Part shown: one piece after another, positions 8,770-11,506 of the stretch
Numbering within the stretch: position 1 is the stretch's first letter
Layout of the letters: each line of letters starts with the position of its first letter
Assembly: GCA_947500295.1 (NCBI GenBank)
Contig: CANMRM010000004.1
Coordinates: forward strand, 249,663 to 313,662
Reading direction: 5' to 3'
Source: an uncultured Kordiimonas sp.
Lineage (GTDB): Bacteria; Pseudomonadota; Alphaproteobacteria; Sphingomonadales; Kordiimonadaceae
DNA: 64,000 nt
Notes under the pieces: model-generated
The model's input: only the letters and a program-made list of their open reading frames with translations
Told to the model about the DNA's origin: nothing
Databases searched by the model: none
Position numbers and translations under genes: made by a program

Positions 8770-8960
8770 CTTCGTGTTAACCATCTAAAGTCCCGTTTTC
8801 TTTACGTTAATAAATTGCCTGTAGCATAGTATGTGAAGAAACCCCCTTTTGCTTTTTTTTGAGGCAAATGTTGGGTGTTTTCTCGTTACAGATTGTTGAC
8901 TTGACGGGAAATGTTGTTGAAGAATCAACAGGGTTCGGGACGTACTGAGGGGATTGCACG

Positions 8961-10985
8961 GTGAGCGGCGAAAATGCGCCAGTTCCTGACAGCCAGAGTG
9001 CATTTGGTGATCGCTATGAAGTGATCACAGCGACACCGCTGCCTGAGTTCAGCACGCGCGGTGGCGACGCTTTTGCCGTGAAAGACAGGGAAAAGTCTGG
9101 CGGCGATATCTATGCGCTTGTTCACCATCCGTCGATACCCCTGAGGAACGAAGTCTACAAAACCCTGCGTGGCAAGCCAGTTGCCAATTTGATCTGCCCG
9201 GTTGATCGGGGATTGATGAATCTCCTTATCAATGGCCGTAAAGTACAGCGCCTGGTGACTATTTTCGGTCGGCCGACGGGCGGTGCTTTGATGGGGCAGG
9301 ACGGCAAGGTAAACCCCCGCGTGAACGCCAACCGCCTGCGGCAGAATGTTGCGCTGTCAATCCTGAAGGCGATTACGGCACTTCACAAACGTGGCTTCAT
9401 GCATCGTTCGATCATGCCAACCAACGTGTATTTCAGTACCCCGAGCAGTGATGACGTGGTTATCGGGGAGTGTTACAGCATGCCCCCCGGCTATCAGCAG
9501 CCGTTTGCCATGGAGTCGCTTGATCTGGCGCTTGCTGACGGTACCGCCCGCGGGGCCGGTGATGTTGAATCTGACTATTATCAGATGGGTGCAACGATGC
9601 AGGCACTCTACTTCGGCGAACAAATCTGGCGAGGCCGCGACCGCGACAGCATGCTGATGGCACGGGTTAACCAGGGCTCATTTTGGGCCTTGAGCGGTGG
9701 CCGCGAGGTGCCGGGTGCGCTTGGAAGCCTCATTCGAGGCCTGACAGCTGACGAAATTGATGAACGCTGGGGTGCTGAAGAGGTTCTGGACTGGTTCGAA
9801 GGCGTTGGGAAACCAAAACGAACCACGATGAAAGCCTGGTCGATGAACAGGCCAACAAACTTCAAGGGTGTTGCGGTTGTTGACCGTCGACTGCTGGCTC
9901 ATGCATTTGCCCGAGACCCTGCGGAGGCGGCGAGTTTTCTGAAGTCGATTGATTTTCCGTCCTGGGTCCAAATGTCGTTCAGGGACGAGATTTTGACCGA
10001 CCGGCTGGAATCCTTGCTGAACGTAAAGCCTGATAGTGGTTTTGGCGGCATGCGTTCGGATGATTACAAGATGGTTACCCGGGTATGTATGTTCCTGCAC
10101 CCGACAGGCCCCATTCATTACAAGGGCCATTCCTTCTTTCTTGGTGGCATTCCTTCCATGATTGCTGAGGCATTTTCCCGGGATGACAGGGAAACGCTGT
10201 CTGCCATCGTTGATTTGCTCGATGCGAAATTTCTGCAGACTTTGGCAGATGTTGCCGAAGTTCAGGGCGTGAAACTGGGAACTCATCTTGCAGACCTGCG
10301 ACGGGTGATGGCGTTTGCAGCCAGCAAACAGCTGGGCAAGGGAATGGAACGAGTTCTCTATGAGCTAAATCCCATTCTGCCGTGCGTGTCCCAACGATTT
10401 GGCAATGTCTGGATCGGTTCCATCATCCAAATGATGCGGGCCCTGGAGCGCATAGCTGCCTCTGGGACCACGCGGAACATTCTGCTGGACCGCCATCTGG
10501 CTGCATTCTGCGCAACGCACGGCGTGGATCTGGAGCGGGAATTCAATAATCTCGCGGCAGCGCAGCACAGTCCTGCCAAATTCAACAGTTTGTCGCTTAA
10601 CTTCTTTGGTCTTTTGCAGCAGCGCTGCAAAATGGAGGCGCTGCCCAACCTGACCTCCAAGCTGGTGGATGGGCTCGCTCCTGCCGTTAAAGGCCTCAAG
10701 AACAAGAAGCGACGAGAACAGGTTCAGGCCGCGCTCGAAAAGAGCAAAAAGGGTGGGGATATCGCCAAGCTCTCGTCCGAGGTCAACATGGTAAAAGTAC
10801 AGGCTGAAGATGCGCGCGAGTTTGCCCAGGCCCGAACACTGGTAGCCCGATTGGAGCGCGAGCGTAAAAAACTTCTTCGCAAAGTCCAGCCAAATGACCC
10901 GGAGGCACGCAAGATTGGCTTGAAGGGCAGTCGGATAATTGCCTTGGCTGGGTTTCTTATCGTGGCCTTCCTGACATTTTTCTGA
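8961..10985 (+). CDS. protein kinase-like (probable pseudokinase) protein with C-terminal TM segment
   Basis: Kinase-fold pattern 'ALHKRGFMHRSIMPTNVYFS' (degenerate HRDxKxxN), 'DVESDYYQMGATMQALYFGEQIW', 'LTADEIDERWGAEEVLDWF'; C-terminal 'GSRIIALAGFLIVAFLTFF'; GTG start. Confidence 0.75.
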   Translation: MSGENAPVPDSQSAFGDRYEVITATPLPEFSTRGGDAFAVKDREKSGGDIYALVHHPSIPLRNEVYKTLRGKPVANLICPVDRGLMNLLINGRKVQRLVTIFGRPTGGALMGQDGKVNPRVNANRLRQNVALSILKAITALHKRGFMHRSIMPTNVYFSTPSSDDVVIGECYSMPPGYQQPFAMESLDLALADGTARGAGDVESDYYQMGATMQALYFGEQIWRGRDRDSMLMARVNQGSFWALSGGREVPGALGSLIRGLTADEIDERWGAEEVLDWFEGVGKPKRTTMKAWSMNRPTNFKGVAVVDRRLLAHAFARDPAEAASFLKSIDFPSWVQMSFRDEILTDRLESLLNVKPDSGFGGMRSDDYKMVTRVCMFLHPTGPIHYKGHSFFLGGIPSMIAEAFSRDDRETLSAIVDLLDAKFLQTLADVAEVQGVKLGTHLADLRRVMAFAASKQLGKGMERVLYELNPILPCVSQRFGNVWIGSIIQMMRALERIAASGTTRNILLDRHLAAFCATHGVDLEREFNNLAAAQHSPAKFNSLSLNFFGLLQQRCKMEALPNLTSKLVDGLAPAVKGLKNKKRREQVQAALEKSKKGGDIAKLSSEVNMVKVQAEDAREFAQARTLVARLERERKKLLRKVQPNDPEARKIGLKGSRIIALAGFLIVAFLTFF

Positions 10986-10993
10986 GGTAAAGC

Positions 10994-11506
10994 ATGAGCA
11001 AAAAGAAAAAAGCACCTGCTGTTCGCCGCCGCCGTCGCCCCCAGAGGGAGATGTCCGGCTTTGCGCCCATGCTGGTTGTAGGCTTTGCGGGCGCAGCGCT
11101 ATACAGCCTCGGTTCGGCCATCATTATGGCGCTGGGCATAGCCCCGACAATCGTGCTCGGTTTCACCGGAAAAGGTGAATTTAAGGCTGAGCGCCTGCAG
11201 TGTGTCGGGTTTTGTAATCTGGCGGGTGTTCTACCCTTCATGTACCAGGCCAAATTGCGGGGTTGGGAAGCCGTAGTCGGTGACGCGATCAATATTGTCC
11301 TGATGTTTGGTTCGGCGGCTATTGGTTATGCGCTTGTGTATGTGGGACCCATGGTTGCTGCATTTGTGCTGCAGGGCCTGAACGAAGACAGGCTAAAAAA
11401 GATCGGGCAGCAAAGGCAGTCGCTTGTTGACCTTTGGAGCCACGAAGTGCTTGGCGATAGGGAAGAAGAGCAAAAACAGAACGCGGGCAAAGGATTTATC
11501 CGCTAA
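10994..11506 (+). CDS. small membrane protein with highly basic N-terminus, unknown function
   Basis: MSKKKKAPAVRRRRRPQREMSGFAPMLVVGFAGAALYSLG...; three hydrophobic segments; starts 8 bp after the pseudokinase stop. Confidence 0.75.
   Translation: MSKKKKAPAVRRRRRPQREMSGFAPMLVVGFAGAALYSLGSAIIMALGIAPTIVLGFTGKGEFKAERLQCVGFCNLAGVLPFMYQAKLRGWEAVVGDAINIVLMFGSAAIGYALVYVGPMVAAFVLQGLNEDRLKKIGQQRQSLVDLWSHEVLGDREEEQKQNAGKGFIR

Follow-up and report, generated by a model that had tools for sequence, protein, structure and literature searches.

A candidate membrane-anchored pseudokinase and its linked membrane-protein partner in Alphaproteobacteria

We analysed a stretch of 64,000 nt from the genome of an uncultured Kordiimonas sp. 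(hereafter the window), in which two adjacent genes probably encode a membrane-anchored pseudokinase (gene 1) and its obligate integral-membrane partner (gene 2), and the two products would together make up a non-phosphorylating scaffold or receptor complex of the inner membrane. An original prediction, made from the letters of the DNA, had proposed a membrane-tethered signalling or scaffold pair rather than an active kinase, and the fold, the residue losses and the conservation of the pair support this proposal, the scaffold function itself being presumed. The two-gene system is present in about a third of the sampled alphaproteobacterial genomes, and neither Pfam nor NCBIfam has a family for it. 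It offers a tractable example of a bacterial pseudokinase that comes with its own partner, and may have a so far unrecognised role in the envelope of a class to which marine and nitrogen-fixing bacteria belong. A search of the literature, mostly of open-access papers, found no study of this pseudokinase family.

The gene order in the window is serA, hisZ, purA and then the pair, which is convergent with rpoH and rluD (names assigned by sequence reading and similarity), and the nearest named relatives of the locus belong to Kordiimonas. The two tightly coupled open reading frames described in the original prediction are present at the stated coordinates (Table 1), and the gap between them is 8 bp. 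Because the ribosome-binding site of the partner gene overlaps the stop codon of the pseudokinase gene, the arrangement suggests translational coupling.

Table 1. Positions of the genes, signals and protein features in the window
Feature	Position	Strand	Description
Sigma-70-like promoter	8896..8925	+	weak match TTGACT-18-AAGAAT; consensus match only
Ribosome-binding site GAGGGG, pseudokinase gene	8947..8952	+	from sequence
Pseudokinase gene (gene 1)	8961..10985	+	674 aa, GTG start; predicted kinase fold followed by a helical domain and a TM helix at the C-terminus
Beta3 strand YALV (residues 51-54)	9111..9122	+	Val54 in place of the catalytic Lys
Catalytic loop HRSIMPTN (residues 148-155)	9402..9425	+	Ser150 replaces the HRD Asp; Asn155 retained
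GEC (residues 169-171)	9465..9473	+	Glu170 at the DFG Asp position, by profile alignments to solved kinases
Asp205, structural Asp of helix alphaF	9573..9575	+	conserved
Helical domain (about residues 294-640)	9840..10880	+	about 350 residues; invariant or nearly invariant Y467, C475, D510, D617
C-terminal TM helix (about residues 655-673)	10923..10979	+	hydrophobic in 90/94 representatives
Ribosome-binding site GAGG, partner gene	10984..10987	+	from sequence; overlaps the pseudokinase stop codon
Partner gene (gene 2)	10994..11506	+	170 aa, ATG start; three or four hydrophobic segments between a basic N-tail and a conserved C-tail

Kinase fold and catalytic residues of gene 1

The AlphaFold model of the pseudokinase, with 33 relatives in the alignment, reached a pLDDT of 90 and a pTM of 0.84, and a Foldseek search against the PDB gave 1793 matches at E ≤ 0.001, the best-listed 50 of which were all protein kinases, PknB, WNK and CDPK among them. 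Hence the kinase-fold outline claimed in the original prediction is borne out, and the gene 1 product is predicted by the model to have a bilobal protein kinase fold. A family profile compared with PDB sequences gave 280 distinct matches at E ≤ 0.001, and the 60 matches listed were all kinases. The direct sequence evidence for this fold is weak but consistent: the kinase-profile search that had been proposed as a check matched the Pfam Pkinase model to the window protein at E 2.3e-5, which is below the curated cut-off, and to 26 of its 33 relatives. Neither protein was matched above cut-off in Pfam or NCBIfam, and gene 1 had no Pfam match besides Pkinase. Matches to gene 1 in PADLOC covered the kinase core only and were rejected.

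Residues were counted in 124 distinct full-length relatives of the pseudokinase. The position of the beta3 Lys is Lys in a single relative and mostly Val, Ile or Leu, and that of the HRD Asp is likewise Asp in 1/124 and mostly Ala, Ser, Asn or Gly, which agrees with the earlier reading of a missing VAIK Lys and of an HRD motif turned into HRSIMPTN. The His of this motif is kept in 117 and its Arg in 98 of the relatives, giving the family motifs HR[ASNG] and, at beta3, YAL[VI]; moreover, the fold residues D205 and R269 are each retained in 123/124. Intact catalytic residues elsewhere in the protein would have spoken against a pseudokinase, and we looked for them across the family: the kinase domain has no conserved Lys that could compensate, and no HRD Asp is conserved at another place. 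Close to the position of the beta3 Lys, R62 (119/124) is the one conserved basic candidate. The original prediction had also read the DFG position as GEC. The register of this reading was one residue off, because profile alignments to solved kinases put the DFG Asp on E170, so that the motif is E-C-Y and not G-E-C. Position 170 is acidic in 114 relatives (Glu in 84, Asp in 30), the catalytic-loop Asn155 is retained in 103, and the two occur together in 93; within the window's own order Asn155 is variable, being retained in 16/33. Because the HRD Asp and the beta3 Lys have almost disappeared and the Asn and the acidic residue mostly persist, canonical kinase catalysis appears to be lost throughout the family with the metal-site residues mostly kept. 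The metal or nucleotide site thus looks only half lost, with the DFG Asp conservatively replaced and the catalytic-loop Asn usually present, and this retention makes nucleotide binding, even unusual catalysis, possible.

Three other explanations were weighed. An atypical active enzyme on the kinase fold, whose retained Asn and acidic DFG residue would bind metal-ATP for some other reaction, has precedents in SelO and SidJ, which carry out AMPylation and glutamylation, respectively, on this fold (PMC12599244), and the joint retention of N155 and E/D170 is in its favour; we nevertheless consider it unlikely, as Val, Ile or Leu stands at the beta3 Lys position in nearly all relatives, nothing but R62 is at hand to compensate, and N155 varies in the order to which the window belongs. 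It is also rather improbable that the protein allosterically controls an active Hanks kinase of its own cell, forming a pseudokinase-kinase pair. Such a role is frequent for eukaryotic pseudokinases (PMC12599244) and the genome has two canonical Pkinase genes, but these are located on contigs C5 and C1 and the pair on C4, so neither is close. NCBI annotates the Azospirillum homologs (L169:5950-7995 and L170:5962-7998) as serine/threonine protein kinase, and this record name speaks for a canonical active Ser/Thr kinase, a reading contradicted by the sequence and hardly credible; the annotation is misleading because the catalytic residues are missing family-wide.

Helical domain, partner protein and comparison with known systems

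The long helical region and the C-terminal TM segment named in the original prediction are both present, as judged from the model and from hydrophobicity, and the C-terminal part folded alone gave a pLDDT of 87. The helical domain alone found no match in the PDB at E ≤ 0.001 by Foldseek, and armadillo-like matches (beta-catenin) were weak, with a probability <0.1, and were discarded. Among 94 representatives at 60% identity, Y467 and C475 are conserved in all, D510 and D617 in 93, and H512 in 90. Because residue invariance within the family is highest in this domain, the pattern suggests that the working site is the helical domain rather than the kinase cleft. The near-invariant Y467 (10359-10361), C475-x-S477 (10383-10391) and D510-x-H512 (10488-10496) resemble a functional or metal-binding site.

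The partner has two strong hydrophobic stretches (residues 26-57 and 99-127) and a weaker one (71-90), and three or four TM helices are therefore predicted; the earlier description of a three-TM protein holds as to a membrane protein, with the number of helices now put at three or four. Its C-tail is soluble and conserved, reading QRxxLxExWGxEV in consensus and QRQSLVDLWSHEV in the window, with Trp148 invariant. In the basic N-tail the charge is conserved (net +3 or more in 32/37) and the sequence is not; an ordinary positive-inside topology signal would explain this better than the binding of nucleic acid that had been suggested. The comparison of the partner sequence with the PDB gave nothing credible, and its PADLOC matches were weak Cas1 noise.

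We infer that the two proteins contact each other in one inner-membrane complex, in which the pseudokinase would be anchored by its own C-terminal TM helix and joined to its dedicated membrane partner. The kinase-like and helical domains would face the cytoplasm and act as a non-phosphorylating scaffold or receptor, with the helical domain binding a client, and the half-retained site (N155 and E/D170) may sense a nucleotide or metal ion. The small partner would anchor the complex or pass its state across the membrane. A more specific version, offered tentatively, is that of a signalling or assembly machine peculiar to Alphaproteobacteria and amounting to an unrecognised envelope system, with the helical domain as working site, the pseudokinase domain as a regulator that responds to a nucleotide or metal, and the partner as the transmembrane output.

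The proposed complex resembles EssB/YukC of type VIIb secretion, where a cytoplasmic pseudokinase with one TM tether serves as a scaffold with membrane partners (PMC12599244, PMC9600267). However, EssB has its TM segment in the middle of the protein and an extracellular domain, and is found in Firmicutes with T7SS genes, whereas the window family has an all-helical domain before a TM helix at the extreme C-terminus and no adjacent secretion genes. With this architecture, and with no Pfam match besides Pkinase, we take the likeness to concern the working outline only and the window family to be no member of EssB/YukC. The GLW family is proteobacterial, consists entirely of pseudokinases and has a C-terminal TM helix (PMC12599244), as is the case here in 90/94 representatives, but Gly-Leu-Trp replaces its HRD and its beta3 strand is poly-Leu, so that the window family, with its HR[ASNG] and YAL[VI], lacks the defining HRD replacement and is set apart by the definition in PMC12599244. 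ActPs3 and MviN are likewise all pseudokinases, many of them with a C-terminal TM helix, and MviN has a scaffold role; in contrast, they are actinobacterial, have an activation-loop deletion and fully degraded catalytic motifs, and no such helical domain is described for them. PknB is an active kinase with an extracellular PASTA domain, and it shares the kinase fold (Foldseek match 3oro, TM-score 0.66 normalised to the target) but only about 16% identity with the window protein.

Distribution, linkage and selection of the pair

We surveyed 387 alphaproteobacterial genomes of at least 90% completeness and counted strong matches. The pseudokinase was present in 130 genomes and the partner in 128; thus 128 of the 130 pseudokinase carriers have the partner, which never occurs without the pseudokinase (128/128), and the co-occurrence has a Fisher p of about 4e-102 when phylogeny is ignored. 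In both exception genomes a weak partner match adjoins the pseudokinase (51.8 and 17.4 bits, the second marginal). The partner is next downstream in 82/90 pseudokinase copies, compared with purA upstream in 49/83 and rpoH downstream in 45/84, showing that the pair is more tightly held than its neighbourhood. The conservation of the pair across Alphaproteobacteria, for which the original prediction had asked a check, is therefore upheld. The eight copies without an adjacent partner comprise two at contig ends or with broken frames, two with the partner elsewhere, three extra paralogs and one marginal match; since the extra copies (L121, L132 and L145) have no adjacent partner, it is not needed by every paralog. 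In two genomes (G455 and G385) the two genes lie on separate contigs and both are retained, and in Azospirillum ramasamyi it has been relocated as a unit, whereas in Azospirillum thermophilum it remains at purA. A single-sequence query against the genome contigs returned only five loci, of close Kordiimonas type. Outside Alphaproteobacteria, a 299-genome sample of the phylum gave nothing above 71 bits, with kinase-core matches only and no full-length relatives.

Compared with the closest relative (L051), the pseudokinase had a dN of 0.070 and the partner one of 0.175, against 0.135 for hisZ, 0.110 for rluD and 0.031 for purA; the selection ratios are approximate because synonymous change is near saturation. 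Conservation down to about 30% identity and purifying selection show both genes to be real, and neither is decaying. The pair is retained even in genomes of 1.4-2 Mb. Hence a decaying kinase pseudogene, which the loss of catalytic residues and a few broken copies in drafts (L019/L055, L048) might have indicated, is refuted by purifying selection, class-wide conservation, invariant non-catalytic residues and retention in these small genomes. The split of the pseudokinase frame in two in draft genomes (L055:5902-8021 and L048:1229-3232) may reflect assembly error or real loss.

The neighbours of the pair and of its extra copies revealed no consistent client and no shared pathway. Two pseudokinase paralogs (L132:8002-10014 and L107:7990-10005) lie inside clusters of TPR-GT41 (OGT-like) glycosyltransferases. 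GT41 genes are numerous in those genomes, so this association may be due to chance; it is also absent from the closest relatives of one paralog, and the link was set aside. The pair is tandemly duplicated as a pair at L124, L144 and L128, in three genomes of two families. Solo partner paralogs occur in one family (G211 and G325), with three extra copies per genome (L153:8381-8899 and L154-L158), and one solo partner copy adjoins a hybrid histidine kinase that carries receiver and Hpt domains.
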